64,000 bases of DNA from Rhodocaloribacter litoris (GTDB taxonomy: Bacteria; Bacteroidota; Rhodothermia; Rhodothermales; ISCAR-4553), in assembly GCF_011682235.2 (NCBI RefSeq), contig NZ_CP076718.1, positions 741,758 through 805,757 on the forward strand, given 5' to 3'. The notes beneath the pieces are model-generated. The model was not told where the DNA came from, made no database searches, and worked only from the letters and a program-made list of their open reading frames with translations. Positions within the stretch are counted from its first letter, which is position 1. Each line of letters begins with the position of its first letter. Positions 1 to 13,698 of this stretch are shown piece by piece. The position numbers were made by a program, and so were the translations under genes.

Positions 1-51
1 AGGGGGAACCACGGGGTGCGAAAAAAACGACACGCATCGAACGGAGGGACC

Positions 52-1629
52 ATGCGACACGACGCCAGCCCACAGCGTTGCTGCGGCCGCCCACCGGCGT
101 GTAGACGCCGGGCCGCGTTGCTCCTGGCGGCCCTGGTGGTGCTGCCCACCGGCCTGCTCGCGCAGGAACCCGACCTGGGCACGGAAGCCCAGCGGGCAGC
201 CGGGCGCCAGGTCTACCTGGAGAAATGCGCGCAGTGCCACGGAGAAAACGGAGACGGGCAGAGCTACGCCACCCCCTTCCTGCGTCCCGCCCCGCGCGAC
301 TTCACCGCCGGCATCTTCAAGTTCCGCACCACCCCCAGCGGCGAACTCCCCACGACGGACGACCTCCGGCGCAGCATCCGCGAAGGCATGCCCTACACCA
401 GCATGCCGGCCTGGCGCGGCGTCCTCTCCAGCACCGAGATCACCAACCTGGCCTACTTCATCAAAACCTTCAACGACGACTTCACCGGCCCCTACGGCGT
501 CCCCACCGTCGTCGAGATCCCCCGCGACCCCGGCTTCGACGAAGACAACCTCGAACGTGGACGGCAGGTCTACGAGGAAAACCAGTGCGCCGACTGCCAC
601 GGCAACCAGGGACGCGGCAACGGCCCCTCGGCACCCACCCTGGAAGACCAGTGGGGCTTTCACATCCGCCCCGCCGACCTGACCAAACGCTGGACCTTCC
701 GCAACGGACAGACCCGCCGGGACATCTACCGCACCTTCACCACCGGCCTCGACGGCTCCCCCATGCCGTCGTACGACATGCCCGAAGAAGACCGCTGGGC
801 CCTCGTCGACTACGTATGGTCGCTCTCCCGGAGCGAGCCGAACTACGCCACGGCAGCTTATTCCCACGCCGTCGAAGGCCCGCTCGACCTGAGCCGGGGC
901 CCCGCCCTTTTCGAGGAAGCCGAGCCGGCCTACTTCCCCGTCGTCGGCCAGGTCATCGAGCCGGGACGCTCCTTCTACCCCGGCGTCAACGGCATCGAGC
1001 TGCGGGCCGTGCACAACGCCGACGAGATCGCCTTCCTGGTCACCTGGCATGACCTCCGGGCCGACACCCGGGGACGCAACGGCCCCGACCTCCCGGCGCC
1101 GATGAACGAACCCGCCCGGCCCGACACCGCCACCACCTTCTCGGACGCCGTCGCCCTCCAGTTCCCCGCCACGCTCCCCACCGGCGTCGAGCGCCCCTAT
1201 TTCCTCTTCGGCGACCGGAAGAACGCCGTCGACCTGTGGTTCGTCGACCTCGCCGAGGGAACGGGACGCCGGTATATCGGGCGCGGCTACCGGGACCTCC
1301 AGCCCGCCTCCGACGGCCCCCCGATCGAGGTCCGCACCGCCTACGACGACGGGGCCTGGCAGGTCCTCTTCAAACGCGCCCGCCTCGCCGGGGAGGGCCT
1401 CTCCTTCCCCGAAGACACGTTCGTCCCCATCGCCTTCTCCGTATGGGACGGGTTCAACCAGGAACGCGGCAACAAGCGCGGCATCACCTCCTGGTATGCC
1501 GTCTACATCGCCCCGCTGGAACAACCCGCCGCGCTCGGCCCCGCCCTCGGCTACGGCCTCGCCACCCTGCTGCTGGGACTGGCCCTCGTCGGCTACACCC
1601 GCCGGAAATACCGGACGGCGACGGCGTGA
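52..1629 (+). CDS. Diheme cytochrome c with ethylbenzene-dehydrogenase-type haem domain, membrane anchored
   Basis: Exported electron-transfer protein of 525 residues. A signal peptide (hydrophobic run near residues 20-37) is followed by two class-I cytochrome c domains with CAQCH at residues 59-63 and CADCH at 179-183. The region from about residue 270 to 500 resembles the haem-b-binding domain of ethylbenzene dehydrogenase / type II DMSO reductase gamma subunits. A C-terminal TM helix with RRKYR at the end anchors it. I chose ATG 52 because GGAGG lies just upstream; an in-frame GTG at 16 is less likely. The usual partner would be a molybdopterin enzyme or a quinol-oxidising complex, but nothing upstream is visible, so the partner is unknown. 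Family assignment is good, role inferred. Confidence 0.85.
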   Translation: MRHDASPQRCCGRPPACRRRAALLLAALVVLPTGLLAQEPDLGTEAQRAAGRQVYLEKCAQCHGENGDGQSYATPFLRPAPRDFTAGIFKFRTTPSGELPTTDDLRRSIREGMPYTSMPAWRGVLSSTEITNLAYFIKTFNDDFTGPYGVPTVVEIPRDPGFDEDNLERGRQVYEENQCADCHGNQGRGNGPSAPTLEDQWGFHIRPADLTKRWTFRNGQTRRDIYRTFTTGLDGSPMPSYDMPEEDRWALVDYVWSLSRSEPNYATAAYSHAVEGPLDLSRGPALFEEAEPAYFPVVGQVIEPGRSFYPGVNGIELRAVHNADEIAFLVTWHDLRADTRGRNGPDLPAPMNEPARPDTATTFSDAVALQFPATLPTGVERPYFLFGDRKNAVDLWFVDLAEGTGRRYIGRGYRDLQPASDGPPIEVRTAYDDGAWQVLFKRARLAGEGLSFPEDTFVPIAFSVWDGFNQERGNKRGITSWYAVYIAPLEQPAALGPALGYGLATLLLGLALVGYTRRKYRTATA

Positions 1630-1692: not shown

Positions 1693-1886
1693 GGCAAGCA
1701 CAAACTTTATAGGAAAGGGGAAGGTACGGAGGGGGCTGTAAAACCCCTGACTTCAGTCGGCGGGATAAGGCGATGGTACATCGCCCTTGGACCCCCTCCG
1801 TTTCCTGTGAGGGCGTTCTCCACCGTCTGTAGACGGCGGCACGACTGAACAGGAACCTTACGCACATAATAGGGGTGCGTGTAACT

Positions 1887-3047
1887 ATGCCCGAGGTGAT
1901 ACGAACATATCGTTACCGAGCCTACCCGAACGCTGAGCAGAGGGAGAACCTTGCTCGCACGTTCGGGTGTGCCCGATGGGTGTACAACTGGGGTCTGGAG
2001 CGCAGAACCAACGCCTACTACGGCGAAGGCAAGAGTCTCACCTACAACAGTCTCGCCGTGGAACTTACGCAGGTCAAGAAGCGAGAGGAGACAAAGTGGC
2101 TCCAAGAAGTCTCCAGCGTCGTACTCCAGCAATCACTTCGCAACCTCGAACGCGCCTTCACGAACTTCTTCGAGCAGCGAGCAGGCTATCCCAGGTTCAA
2201 ACGTAAGAGTGCCAACCAAAGCGCGACCTACGCCAACAGCGCCTTCCGTTTCGACCCCGAAACGATGACGCTTACGCTGGCGAAGCAGAAAACGCCGCTC
2301 AAAATCCGATGGAGCCAAAAGCCGGAGGGAGAGGTTGTCAAGGTAACCGTGACGCTCGACTCTTCTGGGCGCTACCACGTCTGCCTGCACTGCCGGTGCT
2401 GTGTGGAACCAATGCCCAAAACTGGTAAACGCATCGGCGTGGATCTCGGTCTGAACGACGTAGTGGTGACCTCTGACGGTTTCCGCAGCGGTAACCCGAA
2501 GCATCTCCGCAAAGCGTATTACCGCCTGCGTCGGGCACAGAAAGCCCTCAGCCGTAAGCAAAAGGGTAGCAACAACTACGGCAAGGCAAGGCGGCGTCTG
2601 GCAAAGATCCACGCCCGCATTGCCGATCAGCGAAACGACTTCATCCACAAGCTCACGACTGATCTCGTCAAGAACCACGACGTGATCGCGGTCGAGAGTC
2701 TTGCGGTGAAGAACATGATGAATAACCATTGCCTTGCTCGCTCCATATCGGAGGCGAGTTGGGGCGAGATCGTACGCGGGCTCGAATACAAGTGCGCGTG
2801 GTACGGGCGTACGCTCATCAAGGTGGATCGCTGGTTTCCCTCCTCCAAACGATGTAGCGATTGCGGCCACATCAAGGAAACGATACCTCTCAACGTGCAC
2901 CGCTGGACCTGCGAAGCGTGTGGAGTTGAACATGACCGCGACGTAAACGCGGCGAAGAACATTCTGGCGGTCGGAGCGACCGTTGCAGCCTGTGGAGATC
3001 TGAGTAAGACCTCGGTAGCTATTGAGCTACAAGGCATCGGTCTGTGA
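1887..3047 (+). CDS. tnpB: TnpB RNA-guided nuclease (IS605 OrfB family)
   Basis: 386-residue TnpB, full length for the family. The RuvC-like catalytic residues are all present: D186 in GVDLGLND, E270 in AVESL and D352 in HDRDVNAAKNI. The four-cysteine zinc knuckle (C323, C326, C342, C345) lies between the last two, as expected. The N-terminal helix-turn-helix-like OrfB region (RTYRYRAYPN, then CARWVYNWGL) is intact. ATG 1887 is preferred over the in-frame GTG at 1875 because the protein then begins at the usual TnpB start. Known family members cut DNA next to a TAM using an omega RNA from the element's right end. The codon usage is less GC3-rich than neighbouring genes, fitting recent arrival. 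Confidence 0.93.
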   Translation: MPEVIRTYRYRAYPNAEQRENLARTFGCARWVYNWGLERRTNAYYGEGKSLTYNSLAVELTQVKKREETKWLQEVSSVVLQQSLRNLERAFTNFFEQRAGYPRFKRKSANQSATYANSAFRFDPETMTLTLAKQKTPLKIRWSQKPEGEVVKVTVTLDSSGRYHVCLHCRCCVEPMPKTGKRIGVDLGLNDVVVTSDGFRSGNPKHLRKAYYRLRRAQKALSRKQKGSNNYGKARRRLAKIHARIADQRNDFIHKLTTDLVKNHDVIAVESLAVKNMMNNHCLARSISEASWGEIVRGLEYKCAWYGRTLIKVDRWFPSSKRCSDCGHIKETIPLNVHRWTCEACGVEHDRDVNAAKNILAVGATVAACGDLSKTSVAIELQGIGL

Positions 3048-3272: not shown

Positions 3273-4556
3273 ATGCCCCCCGCTTTCACCCCATCACTCA
3301 TTTCGTGGAACCTGACGCGGCGGTGCAACCTGCGCTGCCCGCACTGCTACCTCTCGGCGGGTGAGGCGGAAGCGGACGAACTTTCGACGGACGAATGCCT
3401 GGCCCTGCTCGACGAGCTGGCGGCGCTCGGCACCGAGATGCTCATCCTCACCGGCGGCGAGCCCCTGCTCCGCCGCGACATCTACGAGATCGCCCGGAAG
3501 GCCTCGGCCCTGGGAATGTGGGTGGTCATGGGCACGAACGGCGTCCTCGTCAACGACCATGTGGCGCGCAAGATGGTCGACTGCGGCGTCCGGGGCGTGG
3601 GCATCAGCCTGGACGCGCTCGACCCGGAAAAGCACGACCGCTTCCGGGGCGGGCCGGATGCCTGGAAGCACAGCGTCCGCGCCCTTGAGATCTGCCGCCG
3701 GCACGGGCTCGAAGTGCTCGTGCAGACGACCGTCATGGAGATGAACTACGACGAGATCCCGGCCCTGCTCGACTTCGCCCGGGAGAAGGGAGCCTGGTCG
3801 TTCAACGTCTACTTCCTCGTACAGACCGGGCGCGGGCAGGCCCTGAACGACCTCTCGCCCGAGCGCACCGAGGCCCTCCTCACCCGCCTGGTCGAGCTCC
3901 AGGACCGCTACCGCCCCATGCTGGTGCGTGCCAAGTGCGCCCCCCAGTTCAAACAGATCGCCTACGCGATGGGGCGCGGCGGGCTGGAGAGCGGCGGCTG
4001 CATGGCCGGCACCGCCTACTGCCGCATCACCCCCGGCGGCGACGTGACCCCCTGCCCCTACATGACCGTGGTCGCCGGCAACCTGCGGGAACGCTCCTTC
4101 ACCGAGATCTGGCAGACCTCGCCCGTCTTTGCCGACCTGCGGGACCGCAGCCGCCTCCAGGGGCGGTGCGGGGCCTGTGAGTTCAACGCGCTCTGCGGCG
4201 GCTGCCGCTGCCGGGCCTACGCCGCCACGGGCGACTACCTGGCCGAGGACCCCGCCTGCACCTACCGGCCGACGGGCCGCCCCCTCGCCGAGCCGCCCCT
4301 CGACTGGTCCGACAACGCCCGCGCCCGCCTCGAACGCATCCCCATCGCCTTCATCCGGGACAAGGTGCGCCGGGGCGTCGAAGCCTTCGCCCGGCGTCAC
4401 GGGCTGCCCCGTATCACCCACGACGTGATGACCCGCGCCCTCCAGGGCGCCGACCGCCCCGAAGCCTTCGCCGGCCTGAAGGCACCGGCCTTCAGGCCGC
4501 GCCAACCGGCCGAGACGGCCGGTACGGGCCGCCCGGAACCGGGTGCCCGGCCCTGA
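3273..4556 (+). CDS. SPASM radical SAM enzyme with C-terminal PCP_red-like module (NirJ/AhbD-like)
   Basis: 427 residues. The radical SAM CxxxCxxC motif is at C18, C22 and C25, and the GGEP motif at 61-64 helps bind SAM. A cysteine-rich SPASM region (about C243 to C329, including CGACEFNALCGGC) should carry extra 4Fe-4S clusters. Overall it resembles NirJ/AhbC/AhbD of haem d1 and alternative haem synthesis, or peptide-maturing SPASM enzymes. Residues 344-391 (DWSDNARARLERIP, then ITHDVMTRAL) match the small domain at the C terminus of protochlorophyllide reductase subunit B. The last 30 residues are encoded by two palindromes and look like a later addition. It heads a run of cofactor genes ending at 8601. 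The substrate is unknown. Confidence 0.85.
   Translation: MPPAFTPSLISWNLTRRCNLRCPHCYLSAGEAEADELSTDECLALLDELAALGTEMLILTGGEPLLRRDIYEIARKASALGMWVVMGTNGVLVNDHVARKMVDCGVRGVGISLDALDPEKHDRFRGGPDAWKHSVRALEICRRHGLEVLVQTTVMEMNYDEIPALLDFAREKGAWSFNVYFLVQTGRGQALNDLSPERTEALLTRLVELQDRYRPMLVRAKCAPQFKQIAYAMGRGGLESGGCMAGTAYCRITPGGDVTPCPYMTVVAGNLRERSFTEIWQTSPVFADLRDRSRLQGRCGACEFNALCGGCRCRAYAATGDYLAEDPACTYRPTGRPLAEPPLDWSDNARARLERIPIAFIRDKVRRGVEAFARRHGLPRITHDVMTRALQGADRPEAFAGLKAPAFRPRQPAETAGTGRPEPGARP
4473..4523. repeat. Two adjacent palindromes inside the radical SAM gene 3' end
   Basis: GGCCTGAAGG at 4473-4482 pairs with CCTTCAGGCC at 4489-4498, and ACCGGCC at 4505-4511 pairs with GGCCGGT at 4517-4523. They encode the non-conserved tail of the radical SAM protein. 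They look like REP-type units, or may act as an intra-operon stem-loop. Confidence 0.55.
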
Positions 4557-4580
4557 CCCGGAACAGATCCGCACCGAGCG

Positions 4581-4760
4581 ATGCCCTACACCATCACCGA
4601 CGCCTGCACCGCCTGCGGCCTGTGCCTCGAGGCCTGCCCCATCGACGCCATCGAGCCGGGCACGCCGGTCTTTGTGATCGACCGCGAGCTGTGTTGCGAC
4701 TTCGAAGAGTGCGTCGCCGTATGCCCCGAAGACGCCATCATCCCCGTGCCGGACGCATGA
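4581..4760 (+). CDS. Small 2x[4Fe-4S] ferredoxin
   Basis: 59 residues. The first cluster motif is classical (CTACGLCLEACP, C9 to C19). The second (CCDFEECVAVCP) has the wider spacing seen in some bacterial-type ferredoxins. It is soluble and cytoplasmic and is the obvious electron donor for the radical SAM enzyme encoded 24 bases upstream. Its stop codon overlaps the next gene's ATG (ATGA at 4757-4760), so the two are translationally coupled. Confidence 0.9.
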   Translation: MPYTITDACTACGLCLEACPIDAIEPGTPVFVIDRELCCDFEECVAVCPEDAIIPVPDA

Positions 4761-5140
4761 ACGGCCCGGTCGCCCATAACGCCCCGACCCCTCCGGAATG
4801 GAACGAGCTCGACTTCGTGCCCTGGGACGCGTTTCGCCGCATGGCCCCCGCCGTCGTGGGCCTGGAGCTTCGCCGCCTGGAAGGGCTGCTGGCCGCCCCA
4901 CCCGACGACCTCGACACCTACAACGCCCTGGTGCGGGCGCGCTTCGAACTGAAGCGGTTCGTCGACCGCCTGGCCGAAGCGAGCAGGGAAACCGCCGCCG
5001 CCACGTGCGGGCCGCACCTGCAGGCGGCCCTCCTCGCCCTCTCGCTCGCTCCCGTCCTCGATCCCGAAACCCGCCAGACCCTGCACTACATCGCCGACCG
5101 CCTCACCTACGTGCACGACCGCCTCCGGCTGGTTTACTGA
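4757..5140 (+). CDS. Unknown 127-residue helical protein of the PCP_red cluster
   Basis: Not recognised. It begins at the ATG that overlaps the ferredoxin stop codon. The sequence is soluble, acidic in its N-terminal part (PEWNELDFVPWD) and mainly helical, with no cysteine pair, signal peptide or TM segment. Strict coupling to the ferredoxin and its place between radical SAM and stress-protein genes suggest a partner or assembly role. No function is claimed. Confidence 0.75.
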   Translation: MNGPVAHNAPTPPEWNELDFVPWDAFRRMAPAVVGLELRRLEGLLAAPPDDLDTYNALVRARFELKRFVDRLAEASRETAAATCGPHLQAALLALSLAPVLDPETRQTLHYIADRLTYVHDRLRLVY

Positions 5141-5167
5141 CCCCGGTGCCGCCTGCAGCCGTGCCCC

Positions 5168-5202
5168 GAACACCCGCACGCAATCCGCAATCCGAAATCC
5201 GC
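5168..5202. repeat. Degenerate heptanucleotide tandem repeat upstream of the USP gene
   Basis: Units GAACACC, CGCACGC, AATCCGC, AATCCGA and AATCCGC end one base before the ATG at 5204. The last three units are almost identical. There is no separate Shine-Dalgarno sequence. Confidence 0.65.
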
Positions 5203-5203
5203 C

Positions 5204-7129
5204 ATGTACGAAACGATCTTCGTCCCCGTCGACAACTCGGAACACGCGCTGACCGGTATCGATCTGGCCGTGGAACTGGGCAAGCGGTTCGGCGCGGAAC
5301 TCGTCGGCAGCCACGCCTATGCGGCCCGGATGCACGACTACCGCTTCAAGCAGATGGAGTTCACGCTGCCCGAGGAATACCTCGTCGAGGCCGAGATGGA
5401 AAAGCAGCGGAAGGTGCACGACACGCTCATCACCATGGGCCTGGAACTCATCTCCGACTCGTACCTGGTGGTGATGGAGGAGCGATGCCGTGCGGCGGGC
5501 GTCCCCTTCACCCCGAAGATGTACGACGGCAAGAACTGGCGCGTGATCGTCCGCGACATCGAGGAGAGCGGGTACGACCTGGTCGTCATCGGGGCGCTGG
5601 GGCTGGGCGCGGTCAAGGACAGCCTCATCGGGAGCGTGTGCGAGCGCGTCTGCCGGCGCGTCAAGACCGACGTACTCGTCGTGAAGAACACCGCCCCGGT
5701 GGAGACCCAGCTCTTCGGGCGCGGCGGCGACGGCACCGTCGATCACGTCGACGGCGGCGGCATCGTCGTCGGCATCGACGGCAGCCCCGAGTCGTTCGCC
5801 GGCCTGCGGACGGCCCTGGCCCTGGGCAAGGCGCTCGACAAACCCGTCGAAGCCGTCTCCGTCTACGACCCCTACCTGCACTACGCGATGTTCAACAGCA
5901 TCGTGAACGTGCTCACCGAACGGGCCTCGAAGGTATTCAAGTTCAAGGAACAGGAGCAGCTCCACGAGGAGGTCATCGACACCGGCCTGGCCAAGATCTA
6001 CCAGTCGCACCTGGAGGTGGCCCGCCGCATCGCCGCCGACGAAGGCTACGACCTGAAGATCACGCTCCTCGACGGCAAGGCGTTCGAGAAGCTCCTCCAG
6101 TACGTGCGGCGCGAGCGCCCCTGGCTGCTCGTGCTCGGCCGCATCGGCGTGCACAGCGAGGCCGACATGGACATCGGCTCGAACACGGAGAACCTGTTGC
6201 GGCTGGCCCCGTGCAACGTGCTCCTCTCGAGCCGCCGCTATACGCCCCCCCTCGACACCGTGGCCGAAGAAACGATGCGCTGGACCGAGCCGGCCCTGCA
6301 ACTGCTCCGCCGCGCTCCCGACTTCGCCCGCGGCATCGCCCGCACGACGATCCACCGCTGGGCCATGGAGCGCGGCCACTCGGTCATCACGCAGTCCATC
6401 GTCGAGCAGGCCATGGCGACGATCCTGCCCCGCTCGGCCATGATCAAGATGGGCATCATCGCCGAGGCGGTGGCGATCGAACAGATCGAAGCCGCCCCCG
6501 AGGACGTGGTGACGTACGTCTGCCCCACCTGCGGCTATGCGGCCCGGGGCTTCGCGCCGGCCGTGTGCGCCGTCTGCGGCGGCCCCGGAGACGCCTTCGA
6601 GAAGATCGACAAGGAGGCCATCGCCCGCCTGGCCCCCCTCGAAGGCCCCATCGAGGAAGAGGACACGTTCGACCACGTCCGGCTCAAGTGGACCGCCGAT
6701 GCCCGCAACCGCCTCCGCGAGGTGCCCGACGGCTACCAGCAGCGGCGGGCCAAGGCCCAGATCGAGAAGAGCGCCCGCGTCCGGCGCCTGCCCGTGATCA
6801 CCCTCGACCTGGTCGAAGACGTCCTCGGCGGTGCCCTCCGCGACACGCAGGACCTGCAGGCCCGCGGCACGCTCGGGCAGGCGGCCGTCGACGCCCCGCC
6901 CCCCGGCCAGGAAATCATCCGCGACGGCGCCTTCTCGTGGACGGCCGAGGCCGTGGCCCGCCTCAACCGCGTCCCGGAGGGCTTCATGCGCAAGGGCACC
7001 AAAAAACGCATGGAAGACGCCGCCCGCCGCCACGGCACCGACCTGATCACGCTCGAGATCGCCGAAGAGGGCATCCGCGACGCCCTTCAGGTGATGGAGG
7101 AGATGATCAAGAAAAAAGCAGAAAAATAG
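5204..7129 (+). CDS. Tandem universal stress protein with rubredoxin-like knuckle and three PCP_red-like modules
   Basis: 641 residues with an unusual architecture. Two UspA-type nucleotide-binding folds come first (about 1-162 and 186-343; IFVPVDNSEHAL and IVVGIDGSPES are the opening strands). PCP_red-like modules then lie at 359-404 (MRWTEPALQLLRRAP, ITQSIVEQAM), 496-541 and 579-627. Between the first and second is a four-cysteine knuckle (C440, C443, C455, C458; VCPTCGY) like rubredoxin. No TM segments. It sits with radical SAM, ferredoxin and Mrp genes, so a role in metal or tetrapyrrole cofactor handling is more likely than general stress. Domain calls are from motif reading; biochemical function is unknown. 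Confidence 0.82.
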   Translation: MYETIFVPVDNSEHALTGIDLAVELGKRFGAELVGSHAYAARMHDYRFKQMEFTLPEEYLVEAEMEKQRKVHDTLITMGLELISDSYLVVMEERCRAAGVPFTPKMYDGKNWRVIVRDIEESGYDLVVIGALGLGAVKDSLIGSVCERVCRRVKTDVLVVKNTAPVETQLFGRGGDGTVDHVDGGGIVVGIDGSPESFAGLRTALALGKALDKPVEAVSVYDPYLHYAMFNSIVNVLTERASKVFKFKEQEQLHEEVIDTGLAKIYQSHLEVARRIAADEGYDLKITLLDGKAFEKLLQYVRRERPWLLVLGRIGVHSEADMDIGSNTENLLRLAPCNVLLSSRRYTPPLDTVAEETMRWTEPALQLLRRAPDFARGIARTTIHRWAMERGHSVITQSIVEQAMATILPRSAMIKMGIIAEAVAIEQIEAAPEDVVTYVCPTCGYAARGFAPAVCAVCGGPGDAFEKIDKEAIARLAPLEGPIEEEDTFDHVRLKWTADARNRLREVPDGYQQRRAKAQIEKSARVRRLPVITLDLVEDVLGGALRDTQDLQARGTLGQAAVDAPPPGQEIIRDGAFSWTAEAVARLNRVPEGFMRKGTKKRMEDAARRHGTDLITLEIAEEGIRDALQVMEEMIKKKAEK

Positions 7130-7139
7130 ACGACCCGCG

Positions 7140-8063
7140 ATGAAAACCTACCACGACATCGCCACGGACGGGGGATCGAACGTCGCCGCGCAGGTGGGTG
7201 AGCAGGCCGCGCGGCTGGCCCGGCGGCTGGCGGGCGTGCGGCACGTCGTCGCCGTGATGAGCGGCAAGGGCGGGGTGGGCAAAAGCGCCGTGACGGTCAA
7301 CCTGGGGGCCGCGCTGGCGCTCGACGGCCTGACCGTGGGCCTGCTCGACGCCGACATCAACGGCCCCTCGCTGGCCCGCATGACGGGCGTGCTGGGGCAG
7401 CCGCTCCGGCTCGAGGACGGGGGCGTCCAGCCGGCCGAAGCGGCACCCGGCCTCAAGGTCATGTCCATCGACCTGCTCCTGGCCGACGAGCACGCCCCCG
7501 TCCTCTGGGAGGCTCCCACCCAGCGCGATGCCTTCACCTGGCGGGGCCTGATGGAGATGCACGCCGTGCGCGAGTTCCTCACCGACACCGCCTGGGGCCG
7601 GCTGGACGTGCTCCTGATCGACCTGCCCCCCGGCACGGACAAGCTCCCCAACCTGGTGGACCTGCTCCCCGCCCTCGACGGTACCCTCGTCGTCACCCTG
7701 CCCTCGGGCGTCTCCCAGCACGTCGTCGGCAAGTCCATCCGCATGGCCACCGCCGTGCTCGGCACCCCGGTGATCGGGCTCGTGGAGAACATGGCCTCGT
7801 ATGCCTGCCCCCACTGCGGGCGCGAGGCCCCGCTCTTCCCCACCGGCGAAGCCGCGGCGCTGGCGGCACGGCACGGCATCCCCTACCTGGGCGGCCTCCC
7901 CTTCGACCCGCGTCTCTCGGCCGCCGCCGACCGCGGGACCGCCTTCATGGTCGAGTACGCCGATACCCCGGCAGGGCGAGCGTTCCGGCGGCTGGCGGAG
8001 CAGGTGCGCACGTTCCTCAACCCCGAGCACCCCTTTGCGCCTTCTCCGCGTTCTTCGCGGTAA
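7140..8063 (+). CDS. Mrp/NBP35-type P-loop ATPase, Fe-S cluster carrier
   Basis: 307 residues. The deviant Walker A GKGGVGKS is at 42-49, and the family signatures DADINGPS and LIDLPPGTD are clear. C223 and C226 (YACPHCG) form the CxxC pair that bridges a 4Fe-4S cluster in ApbC/Mrp dimers. It lacks the N-terminal DUF59 domain of many Mrp proteins. It starts 10 bases after the USP gene. In context it probably loads Fe-S clusters into the radical SAM enzyme, ferredoxin or an unseen partner. Confidence 0.88.
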   Translation: MKTYHDIATDGGSNVAAQVGEQAARLARRLAGVRHVVAVMSGKGGVGKSAVTVNLGAALALDGLTVGLLDADINGPSLARMTGVLGQPLRLEDGGVQPAEAAPGLKVMSIDLLLADEHAPVLWEAPTQRDAFTWRGLMEMHAVREFLTDTAWGRLDVLLIDLPPGTDKLPNLVDLLPALDGTLVVTLPSGVSQHVVGKSIRMATAVLGTPVIGLVENMASYACPHCGREAPLFPTGEAAALAARHGIPYLGGLPFDPRLSAAADRGTAFMVEYADTPAGRAFRRLAEQVRTFLNPEHPFAPSPRSSR

Positions 8064-8094
8064 GACCCTCAACCTTTATCAACGGAGACACACC

Positions 8095-8601
8095 ATGAAA
8101 TTCCTCTGTGTCGCGTGCGACGAGGCGATGACGCTGAAAGAGACGCGCGGCCCCGACGATGGCTCGATGACCGTCGTCTTCGCCTGCCCGGCCTGCGGGC
8201 ACGCTGTCGCTATGCTGACGAACGCCATGGAGACGCAGGTGGTGCGGTCGCTGGGGGTGAAGATCGGCGGGCGAACCACACCGGCCGCTCCGATGGAGAT
8301 GGTGCGCTCCTCCCTGACGACCCGCCGCGAAGGGGCTTTCGAGGACGACCGGCCGGCCTCGCCGGCAACCCCACCGGCGGCGGAAGCCGGCTCGAAGTGT
8401 CCCTTCACCGGCATGGTGAACGCGGCCTACGAGCGCACCGCCCTCCCCTGGACGGCGGAGGCCGAAGCCCGGCTCGAGCGCATTCCCGCCTACGTCCGCC
8501 CGATGGTCCGCAAGGGCATCGAGCAGCACGCTCGCGACCATGGCTATGCCCGGATCGACGCGGCCGTGATGGACGAGGTGAAGGGCCTCTTCGGCCTGTG
8601 A
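8095..8601 (+). CDS. Zinc-ribbon protein with PCP_red-like C-terminal module
   Basis: 168 residues. Paired cysteines C5/C8 and C31/C34 form a zinc ribbon or rubredoxin-like site at the N terminus. A variable linker with a KCPFTG motif near residue 101 follows. Residues 118-163 (PWTAEAEARLERIP, then DAAVMDEV) are the fifth PCP_red-like module of the cluster and closely resemble the one in the radical SAM protein. ATG 8095 has GGAG at 8083-8086. It closes the + strand cluster. Function unknown; it may be a cofactor-binding or docking protein. Confidence 0.8.
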   Translation: MKFLCVACDEAMTLKETRGPDDGSMTVVFACPACGHAVAMLTNAMETQVVRSLGVKIGGRTTPAAPMEMVRSSLTTRREGAFEDDRPASPATPPAAEAGSKCPFTGMVNAAYERTALPWTAEAEARLERIPAYVRPMVRKGIEQHARDHGYARIDAAVMDEVKGLFGL

Positions 8602-8608
8602 CGCCGGC

Positions 8609-9214
8609 TCACCCGGCCTCGGGAACCCCGGTGCTCAGAGGCCGGACGACCGGCTTGAAGAGAAAACCGTGGATGCCGGCCGGCGTGTCCGGATTGCCCT
8701 GCACCACGAACGACTCGCTCACGTCGAAGTCGAGCGTCAGCGTCGAGAGGGAATCCGCCCCGATGACGAAGCCATCGAGGAGCACCTTGATGCCGGTCTG
8801 GGCACCGCTGGGCACCTGCAGGTCGAAGCGCCGGCCGTCCTTGAGCACCACGGCTGCCTCACGCACGATCAGGCGGAGCTGGGCATAGGTTCCCGCCTCC
8901 AGCGTCGTATCGGCCAGCAGGGCCGTGACACCGCCCCGCAGGTCGAGCAGGTTGAAGGTCCGGGTCGTTTCCGAAACCGTCCGGATCGCGCTCGAATCGC
9001 CGGCCGGCACGAGGTCGACACGCGTGATGGTGACGTTGGCCGAATCGACGAGATCGAACGGGAACGGGGCATCCGTCAGGTAGAGCTGCAGGGTCCCACG
9101 TGCCCCGGCGGTCGATTCCTCCAGGCTGTCACACCGCGTCAGGCCGCCGAACACCAGCGCCAGCACGGCTACGGTCCACAACAGGTTCTTATGCTGCACA
9201 AAGCGCCTGCGCAT
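8609..9214 (-). CDS. DUF4382-family exported protein
   Basis: 201 residues, convergent with the preceding cluster. The N terminus is hydrophobic and ends LTRC, a weak lipobox, so it may be a lipoprotein or simply secreted. GTLQLYLTDAP and the following beta-rich region match the DUF4382 fold, a beta-sandwich common in envelope proteins of this phylum. AGGAGG directly precedes its ATG at 9214. The role is unknown. Confidence 0.75.
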   Translation of the reverse strand: MRRRFVQHKNLLWTVAVLALVFGGLTRCDSLEESTAGARGTLQLYLTDAPFPFDLVDSANVTITRVDLVPAGDSSAIRTVSETTRTFNLLDLRGGVTALLADTTLEAGTYAQLRLIVREAAVVLKDGRRFDLQVPSGAQTGIKVLLDGFVIGADSLSTLTLDFDVSESFVVQGNPDTPAGIHGFLFKPVVRPLSTGVPEAG

Positions 9215-9771: not shown

Positions 9772-10263
9772 TCAACCGGCGTCCCACGGCAGGGGGAGCG
9801 ACCTCCCGCCCGGTTGCGACAAGAGGGCTGCCAGCAGGGCCTGGATCCGCTCCGGGTTCGGCTCCAGCTCGTGCAGGAGGGCGCGGGCGTCGTGCAGGAT
9901 GCGGCGCCAGGAGTCGTTGTCCGGGAAGCGGGCACGGCCGTGCTGCCGGTTTGCCAGCAGATCGAGCCGCAGCTCCAGGCAGCCGTGAAACCGTTCGAGC
10001 ATGGCCCGTTCTTCAGGCGTGAAGGCCGCCTCGAAGGCCCGAAGGGCCGCCGCGCTCCGGTCGCCCTTGAGACCGTCCTCAAGGTACTGCGTGCCCGGCA
10101 CGTAGACCTCGTCGAACCAGATGCGGCAGAGGGTCGCGGCCCAGTCCGGCTGGGCGACGTGCGTGCGGAAGGCATCCCGGCAGGCTTCCGACGTGAGGAA
10201 AGCCAGAAAGACGATCACCCGTTCGCGGATGCCGGCGGCGTGGCGCGTCACCTCGTCGTGCAT
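9772..10263 (-). CDS. Unknown 163-residue helical protein
   Basis: Not recognised. Soluble, rich in Arg, Leu and Ala, probably all-helical. Second gene of a two-gene unit, starting 6 bases after the gene at 10270-10686. No signal peptide, TM segment or metal motif. Confidence 0.65.
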   Translation of the reverse strand: MHDEVTRHAAGIRERVIVFLAFLTSEACRDAFRTHVAQPDWAATLCRIWFDEVYVPGTQYLEDGLKGDRSAAALRAFEAAFTPEERAMLERFHGCLELRLDLLANRQHGRARFPDNDSWRRILHDARALLHELEPNPERIQALLAALLSQPGGRSLPLPWDAG

Positions 10264-11820: not shown

Positions 11821-13698
11821 ATGTCCCGTGCGTCATGGTTTTCCCTTCCCCCCATCTCACGCAACGCTATGGCTAACGGCGCCAAGGATAAGAACACGCA
11901 TGCCGCGCCCGAGCTGGACGAGGCGCAGGCCGCGCACCCCACCCACGACCCGGGCCATGGGCCCCCCCCCGAACCCGGCTTCTGGCGCAAGTACGTCTTC
12001 TCGACCGATCACAAGGTCATCGGCATCCAGTACGGCATCACGGCCCTGCTCTTCCTCTTGATCGGGTTCTGCCTGGTGATGCTGATGCGCTGGCAGCTGG
12101 CCTACCCGGGCGAGGCGTTGCCGCTCATCGGCAAGCTCTTCGGCGAGGCCAACATGCCCGACGGCGTGATGCAGCCGGAGTTCTACAACCAGCTCGGCGC
12201 CATGCACGGCACCATCATGGTGTTCCTGGGCATCGTGCCGCTGGCCGTCGGCGCCTTCGGCAACTACGTGGTGCCCCTGCAGATCGGCGCGCCGGACATG
12301 GCCTTCCCCAAGCTGAACATGGCCAGCTACTGGGTCTACTTCCTGGGCGGCGTGGTCATGCTGGCGAGCTTCTTCGTCCCTGCCGGGGCCGCCAAGGCGG
12401 GCTGGACCTCCTACCCCCCGCTGGCCGACATCGAGACGATGGGGCAGACGATGTGGCTCATCGGCATGCTCTTCCTCATCACGTCGTCGCTGCTCGGGGC
12501 GGTGAACTTCCTCACCACGATCATCCAGCTCCGCGCGCCGGGGATGACGTTCATGCGCATGCCCTTCTTCGTCTGGGCCCAGTTCGTGACCGCCTTCCTG
12601 TTGCTGCTGGCCTTCCCGCCGCTGGAAGCCGCCGCCATCTTCCAGCTGATGGACCGCCTGGCCGGCACCAGCTTCTTCCTGCCGAGCGGGCTGGTCGTCA
12701 GCGGGGAGGTGCTGGACGTGGCCGGCGGCGGCAGCCCCCTCCTGTGGCAACACCTGTTCTGGTTCCTGGCCCACCCCGAGGTGTACGTGCTGATCCTGCC
12801 CGCCATGGGCATCGTGGCCGAGATCATCGCCAACAACACGCGCAAGCCGCTCTGGGGCTACAAGGCGCTCGTCTACTCGGTGATCTTCCTGGGCTTCATG
12901 TCCTTCATCGTGTGGGCCCACCACATGTTCATCACGGGCATGGGCACCACCATCAGCGCCTTCTTCCAGGTCACGACGATGATCATCTCGATCCCCTCGG
13001 TCGTCATCCTCTCGGCGCTGTTCATTTCGCTCTGGGGCGGATCGATCCGCTTCACCACCCCGATGCTCTTCGCCCTGGGGTTCCTCCCCATGTTCGGCAT
13101 CGGGGGGCTCACGGGCCTGCCGCTGGGCCTGGCCCCGACCGACATCCACCTGCACGACACCTACTACGTCATCGGCCACTTCCACTACGTCGTGGCCCCG
13201 GGTACCATCATCGCCCTCTTCGCCGGCATCTACTACTGGTTTCCCAAGATCACCGGGCGCAAGATGAACGACCGGCTCGGCAAGATCCACTTCTGGGGAA
13301 CGATCCTGTTCATGAACGGCATCTTCTTCCCCATGTTCATCCAGGGCATGGCAGGTGTCTCCCGGCGGCTCTACGACGGCGGCCAGGTCTACCAGATCGC
13401 CGAGCCGGTGATCCACTACAACGAGTTCATGTCGATCTGCGCCTGGCTGCTGGCTCTGGCACAGATCCCGTTCATCATCAACTTTTTCATGAGCCTGAAG
13501 AAGGGGGAGAAGGTGGAGGCGAACGTGTGGAAAGCCACCACGCTCGAATGGTCCGCCGCCCCCTCGCCGCCCGTGGCGCACGGCAACTTCCCGAAGCTGC
13601 CCACGGTGCACCGGGGGCCGTACGAATACAGCGTCCCCGGCCACGACCGGGATTACCTGCCACAGGACGAAGCTCCCACCGTAGCGGTGGAGCGCTGA
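11821..13698 (+). CDS. Haem-copper oxidase subunit I, A1 type
   Basis: 625 residues with about 12 TM helices. It catalyses oxygen reduction at the haem a3/CuB centre and pumps protons. HPEVY in the sixth-helix region (LAHPEVYVLILP) is the A1-type glutamate motif, unlike the YSHP motif of the second oxidase in this window. CuB and haem histidines are visible in WAHHMF and HLHDTYYVIGHFHY. The opening KYVFSTDHKVIG is typical. Either ATG 11821 or ATG 11869 (MANGAKD) could be the start; neither has a clear ribosome site. Confidence 0.93.
   Translation: MSRASWFSLPPISRNAMANGAKDKNTHAAPELDEAQAAHPTHDPGHGPPPEPGFWRKYVFSTDHKVIGIQYGITALLFLLIGFCLVMLMRWQLAYPGEALPLIGKLFGEANMPDGVMQPEFYNQLGAMHGTIMVFLGIVPLAVGAFGNYVVPLQIGAPDMAFPKLNMASYWVYFLGGVVMLASFFVPAGAAKAGWTSYPPLADIETMGQTMWLIGMLFLITSSLLGAVNFLTTIIQLRAPGMTFMRMPFFVWAQFVTAFLLLLAFPPLEAAAIFQLMDRLAGTSFFLPSGLVVSGEVLDVAGGGSPLLWQHLFWFLAHPEVYVLILPAMGIVAEIIANNTRKPLWGYKALVYSVIFLGFMSFIVWAHHMFITGMGTTISAFFQVTTMIISIPSVVILSALFISLWGGSIRFTTPMLFALGFLPMFGIGGLTGLPLGLAPTDIHLHDTYYVIGHFHYVVAPGTIIALFAGIYYWFPKITGRKMNDRLGKIHFWGTILFMNGIFFPMFIQGMAGVSRRLYDGGQVYQIAEPVIHYNEFMSICAWLLALAQIPFIINFFMSLKKGEKVEANVWKATTLEWSAAPSPPVAHGNFPKLPTVHRGPYEYSVPGHDRDYLPQDEAPTVAVER

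Follow-up and report, generated by a model that had tools for sequence, protein, structure and literature searches.

The 64,000 bp stretch of Rhodocaloribacter litoris contig NZ_CP076718.1 analysed here (positions 741,758 to 805,757 of the forward strand; hereafter the window) was found to carry a cluster in which five small PCP_red modules (PF08369) are distributed over three different proteins, a radical S-adenosylmethionine (SAM) protein, a tandem universal stress protein (USP) and a zinc-ribbon protein. The cluster lies next to genes for a membrane complex whose subunit I resembles that of cytochrome bd (bd-like), and the two are very probably tied to each other. The genes and features of the cluster that fall within the window are the following.

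16..1629 (+), cytochrome c/EB_dh protein with two c-type heme domains and an ethylbenzene-dehydrogenase-type domain, heme b subunit-like (Pfam Cytochrome_CBB3/Cytochrom_C and EB_dh)
3273..4556 (+), radical SAM/SPASM protein of the AhbD/NirJ group with C-terminal PCP_red (family scans, cysteine pattern)
4305..4439 (+), PCP_red module 1, in the radical SAM protein (PF08369, 51.2 bits)
4581..4760 (+), small 4Fe-4S ferredoxin of 59 aa (Pfam Fer4; FdxA_fam, 55.6 bits)
4757..5140 (+), orphan of 127 aa with no family match in the family scans
5204..7129 (+), tandem USP with three PCP_red modules (family scans, predicted structure)
6281..6412 (+), PCP_red module 2, in the USP (PF08369, 41.8 bits)
6515..6601 (+), rubredoxin-like CxxC...CxxC knuckle between modules 2 and 3 of the USP (RUBY_RBDX, 19.9 bits, below cut-off)
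6689..6820 (+), PCP_red module 3, in the USP (PF08369, 37.2 bits)
6938..7066 (+), PCP_red module 4, in the USP (PF08369, 43.3 bits)
7140..8063 (+), Mrp/Nbp35/NUBPL-type P-loop NTPase with a CPHC motif, of the Fe-S carrier type (Pfam ParA/NUBPL, 246 bits)
8095..8601 (+), zinc-ribbon protein with a C-P-F motif and C-terminal PCP_red (family scans)
8449..8583 (+), PCP_red module 5, in the zinc-ribbon protein (PF08369, 63.5 bits)

Translated in all six frames, the window contains exactly five copies of the pattern W-x3-A-x3-L-x2-[IVA]-P, all on the forward strand (starts at 4305, 6281, 6689, 6938 and 8449), compared with a mean of 0.085 copies in shuffled reading frames. These are the same five places, spread over three proteins, that had been pointed out in an earlier note made from the sequence alone, and the PF08369 search proposed there as a check gave a clear answer: in a profile search of the 4.50 Mb genome, with which protein-level scans agreed, all five modules exceeded the curated Pfam cut-off of 32.5 bits. 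No further copy above the cut-off was present in that genome, the next-best matches scoring 15.7 and 14.4 bits. In two predicted structures the modules are modelled as helix-helix-strand-helix, and they match the solved PCP_red domains 2KRU, 2XDQ and 2L09 (E 2e-10 to 7e-10), namely C-terminal domains of BchB/ChlB and the free-standing Nostoc protein Asr4154. A histone-like fold was set aside, the match of the module profile to histone H4 having an E of only 0.17 or worse. E389, G391 and H392 of module 2 are invariant among 45 sequences.

The domain is thus common to the window proteins and to the BchB/ChlB C terminus of dark-operative protochlorophyllide oxidoreductase (DPOR), whereas the window set has no nitrogenase-like BchB core and bears its modules on radical SAM, USP and zinc-ribbon proteins instead. 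The USP scored 62 bits with the BchB model (equivalog cut-off 490), from the modules alone, and no BchL equivalog is found in the set, the Mrp-type NTPase reaching 18.7 bits against a cut-off of 345 and matching the NUBPL family best. As the five modules are the sole PCP_red matches above the cut-off, the genome has no BchB, which rules out DPOR or phototrophy for it.

The radical SAM protein contains a CX3CX2C motif (C18, C22 and C25 in the window protein) followed by the SPASM pattern C-X20-C-X17-C-X37-C-X2-C-X5-C-X2-C-X17-C, whose eight cysteines are invariant in 35 sequences; the full spacing is that defined for AhbD of methanogens and sulfate reducers (PMC10452713). The best models were NirJ2 (354 bits) and AhbD (329 bits, the highest AhbD score in the window genome), whereas the mycofactocin and pyrroloquinoline quinone (PQQ) enzyme models gave far lower scores (160 and 154 bits). 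AhbD/NirJ is the closest model group, sharing both motifs with the window protein, which however falls below every curated cut-off (500 bits for AhbD) and differs in carrying PCP_red.

Both halves of the USP carry the ATP motif G-x2-G-x9-G-[ST], and the glycines (G130/G133/G143 and G312/G315/G325) as well as the four cysteines of the knuckle (C440/C443/C455/C458) are invariant in 45 sequences. Its N-terminal 345 residues match the tandem USPs Rv2623, TTHA0350 and UspE with Z of 25-28, both ATP motifs being kept, whereas the C-terminal half with three modules and the four-cysteine knuckle is additional and a segment around residues 221-270 is distinctive and strongly conserved. When the USP and radical SAM models were used in structure searches, the top matches were only USP-domain proteins and radical SAM enzymes, and the modules themselves were barely covered. 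The NTPase has the NUBPL-type domain and CPxC motif of Mrp/ApbC/Nbp35 carriers, yet remains below the equivalog cut-offs (ApbC, 172 versus 348 bits; MrpORP, 250 versus 450 bits). The C-P-F motif of the zinc-ribbon protein, preceded in most cases by lysine, is present in 35 of 36 homologues and, by our own comparison, appears to resemble heme regulatory motifs. The 127 aa orphan is kept only in Rhodothermales-type clusters.

The conserved cluster extends to the left of the radical SAM gene through 16-1629 and past the start of the window, so that the gene set from the radical SAM to the zinc-ribbon gene is the second half of a longer cluster. Upstream of 16-1629, just outside the window (L008), are genes for a membrane cytochrome c, a diheme cytochrome c and bd-like subunit I. 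The 16-1629 product (NCBIfam DMSO_red_II_gam, 59 bits) resembles the alternative NxrC of nitrite oxidisers and is presumably part of the client complex, which would comprise bd-like subunit I, the two c-type cytochromes and the cytochrome c/EB_dh protein. An open TnpB-type transposon gene (OrfB_IS605, Cas12f1-like TNB, 390 aa; 1875-3047) is inserted between the EB_dh and radical SAM genes; in related Rhodothermales loci the radical SAM gene directly follows the cytochrome c/EB_dh gene, with no TnpB match between them.

Pfam Cyt_bd_oxida_I covers only the N-terminal half of bd-like subunit I (positions 2-237 of 418), where H66 and H227, at least 97% conserved in 42 sequences, align with the two N-terminal heme-ligand histidines of CydA. 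The bd-like protein is an additional enzyme, since a canonical CydA is encoded elsewhere in the genome (G000:C1:2336975-2338240). A bd-like protein, two c-type cytochromes and an alternative NxrC have been described as a conserved cluster without an assigned role in Nitrospina, Nitrospira and anammox bacteria (PMC3578206 and PMC6606698), the complex being called enigmatic in 2013 (PMC3578206). Such proteins were later classed as OR-N type, putatively cytochrome c-oxidising (PMC10839748), and this classification together with the gene context suggests the same label for the bd-like protein of this genome. The four-gene make-up of the described cluster is the one found here upstream of the PCP_red genes. 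However, no USP, radical SAM or chlorophyllide-type gene is mentioned with it in PMC3578206 or named in the consulted passages of PMC6606698, and the Rhodothermales version adjoins cytochrome c oxidase genes, no nitrite oxidoreductase (NXR) being seen next to it.

Relatives were sought in a collection of bacterial and archaeal species genomes with an alignment of three USP-PCP_red proteins, and neighbouring genes were called with profiles built from the window cluster. This gave 80 loci, of which 65 have radical SAM, Mrp or zinc-ribbon genes and 63 respiratory genes; nine have neither, several of them being short contigs. The cluster is found again in Rhodothermales, Acidobacteriota, Myxococcota, Rokubacteria, Planctomycetota and others, so that conservation across genomes, the second check named in the earlier note, gave a positive result too. 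The order in Rhodothermales is bd-like, cytochrome c, membrane cytochrome c, EB_dh, radical SAM, ferredoxin, orphan, USP, Mrp and zinc ribbon. Elsewhere the arrangement differs: in Rokubacteria (L163) EB_dh and USP are separated by a cytochrome c oxidase operon and bd-like lies farther upstream; in a Dormibacterota genome (L167) the USP adjoins two bd-like genes; and in Holophagales and one myxococcal genome proteins that look from their sequences like the first subunits of alternative complex III are encoded upstream. In two loci (L108 and L119, 386-4900) such proteins, by appearance a small multiheme-type cytochrome and a large iron-sulfur protein, are encoded directly upstream of the bd-like cluster. 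At L155 (1-6482) of genome G384, genes for an NXR-like large subunit, a TorD-like chaperone, an iron-sulfur subunit and an NxrC-like protein, again identified by their appearance, adjoin USP-PCP_red and bd-like genes; G384 is called anammox-like on account of this NXR-like neighbourhood of the bd-like cluster and of its lack of ferrochelatase. Module numbers vary as well, the window having three in the USP and one in the radical SAM protein and the anammox-like set one and three, respectively.

The tie between the PCP_red set and the bd-like complex shows in their co-occurrence across 694 genomes of three phyla: the bd-like protein is present in 45 of them, and 44 of these have PCP_red proteins as well. 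Among 198 Bacteroidota the bd-like protein is restricted to three genomes, exactly those with the five-module set (Fisher p = 7.8e-7); three other matches of the bd-like search are CydA-sized, about 30% identical and scored as full-length CydA by PF01654. In Planctomycetota (199 genomes) all 13 carriers have 2-6 PCP_red matches and three of 186 non-carriers have one each (p = 6.8e-18), while in Acidobacteriota (297 genomes) PCP_red was found in 28 of 29 carriers versus 4 of 268 non-carriers (p = 6.8e-34). In the single acidobacterial exception the bd-like match sits at the edge of a contig. Of the four genomes with PCP_red only, three show the two-protein BchB plus BchZ pattern of phototrophs. 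These counts ignore kinship within each phylum; the three phyla are concordant. A bd-like or bd-related protein was matched in each of 20 further genomes with USP-PCP_red, strongly so in 17. The co-occurrence is not just a matter of physical linkage, because in G384 the radical SAM-PCP_red gene is on a different contig from the bd-like cluster. A link to canonical cytochrome bd was rejected, PF01654 being matched in 90 of 198 Bacteroidota, mostly by canonical CydA, without this PCP_red set. The genes immediately upstream, with their near-perfect co-occurrence, thus disclose the probable client, which the earlier note had missed.

PCP_red is fused elsewhere to BchB, to BchZ and to a sulfite-reductase-like protein encoded beside AhbA/AhbB. 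The last is a PCP_red-NIR_SIR-4Fe4S fusion of G384 (L157, 5281-7241, minus strand) directly beside the siroheme decarboxylase genes AhbA and AhbB; similar fusions occur at L164 and L165 without AhbA/B neighbours. G384 also encodes AhbC (732 bits) and an AhbD (498 bits) separate from its radical SAM-PCP_red paralogue (335 bits), and in the radical SAM tree anammox AhbD sequences lie on long separate branches, with weak deep support. A flavodoxin (Flavodoxin_5) with C-terminal PCP_red, weakly resembling the HemG model (20 bits), is the third PCP_red protein of three genomes that are probably Chlorobiaceae (family code f18; phototroph PCP_red pattern): L042 964-1596, L043 7991-8701 and L044 8304-9002. 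The Dormibacterota genome encodes, divergently to the USP-PCP_red gene and near the two bd-like genes, a protein of some 234 aa whose only domains are two PCP_red modules (L167, 1203-1907, minus strand). A Bacteroidota genome without a bd-like gene has a flavin reductase-like protein (L041, 4527-5396, minus strand) whose C terminus matches PCP_red below the threshold.

Downstream of the cluster, a DUF4382 lipoprotein-like gene (8609-9214, minus strand) is directly adjacent and convergent, and a protein without family match is encoded at 9772-10263 (minus strand); L040 has a similar piece (12584-12862) after its zinc-ribbon gene. From about 10974 onwards there is a cytochrome c oxidase operon. 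No Rfam match was found in the window.

The reading that we favour, with a modest degree of confidence, is that the PCP_red proteins make up a cytosolic system that is dedicated to the biogenesis of the bd-like membrane complex and processes or delivers a tetrapyrrole (heme-type) cofactor. No description of a PCP_red/bd-like system was found in the open-licence papers searched, which does not prove its absence elsewhere. We infer the substrate, the product and the function of the modules as follows. The radical SAM enzyme, of AhbD/NirJ type and served by the neighbouring ferredoxin, would modify an iron tetrapyrrole; the modules on three proteins would hold or pass the tetrapyrrole, or dock partners around it; the tandem USP would be a two-site ATP-binding scaffold bearing most modules; the Mrp-type NTPase could load Fe-S clusters or power delivery; and the zinc-ribbon/CPF protein may hand the cofactor to the bd-like complex. 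That the set acts through a tetrapyrrole at all is reasonably probable. The earlier note had proposed a cluster that makes or inserts a tetrapyrrole or metal cofactor; the tetrapyrrole part gains indirect support from the AhbD/NirJ relationship and from the BchB, BchZ and siroheme-type fusions, and a metal cofactor in general is neither favoured nor disfavoured. It is rather doubtful that a chemically modified heme is made rather than ordinary heme handled. More tentative still is the idea of an undescribed, anaerobic-compatible pathway that supplies bd-like complexes, in anammox bacteria as well as in many uncultured phyla, with a chemically modified and possibly chlorin-type heme, in which the AhbD/NirJ-group enzyme would edit the macrocycle and the PCP_red modules would carry or present it.

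Several points weigh against a tetrapyrrole-handling biogenesis system. Tetrapyrrole binding by PCP_red modules is not known outside DPOR; no invariant heme ligand is common to all five modules; the USP and Mrp parts have no specific tetrapyrrole link; AhbD/NirJ-type proteins sit in a wider SPASM group that includes peptide-modifying enzymes; many bacteria that lack these genes still assemble canonical cytochrome bd; and the prosthetic groups of bd-like proteins are putative.

A different scheme, possible though distinctly less probable, is that of docking and assembly without tetrapyrrole chemistry, with PCP_red as a generic protein-protein docking unit, the USP sensing the ATP or oxygen state, Mrp inserting Fe-S clusters and the radical SAM enzyme acting on a peptide of the complex. 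USPs have regulatory functions, UspA proteins whose genes adjoin electron-transport clusters are raised in Nitrospira marina when oxygen is low (PMC8115632), many peptide maturases belong to the SPASM group, and the lineage-variable number of modules per protein is as expected of interchangeable docking units. Nevertheless, the NirJ2 and AhbD scores are far above those of the mycofactocin and PQQ models, tetrapyrrole enzymes and siroheme-type proteins are among the other fusion partners of PCP_red, and no gene for a small substrate peptide was seen in the cluster.

It is improbable that the PCP_red proteins have functions unrelated to one another and that their genes simply accompany the respiratory operon: the genes form one block in Rhodothermales and may have been transferred jointly, but the anammox-like and several acidobacterial sets are split over distant places or contigs and still co-occur, and one domain on three or four different proteins of the set argues for a common function. 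Least probable of all, and largely refuted, is that the cluster belongs to the siroheme-dependent (Ahb) route to heme b, for in spite of AhbD being the second-best model and of the identical SPASM cysteine pattern, the AhbD cut-off is missed and the role of heme b synthase is ruled out by two ferrochelatase matches and no AhbA/AhbB (PF17805) match in the window genome and by the coexistence of a true, separate AhbD in anammox-like genomes.

For the bd-like complex, the co-occurring cytosolic genes of the biogenesis system proposed here offer a handle on both cofactor and assembly. PF08369 has been used as a flag of phototrophs (PMC12815261); it also marks a second, non-photosynthetic system and can therefore mislead trait prediction. 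If the tetrapyrrole reading is true, one more would be added to the dedicated tetrapyrrole maturation systems.

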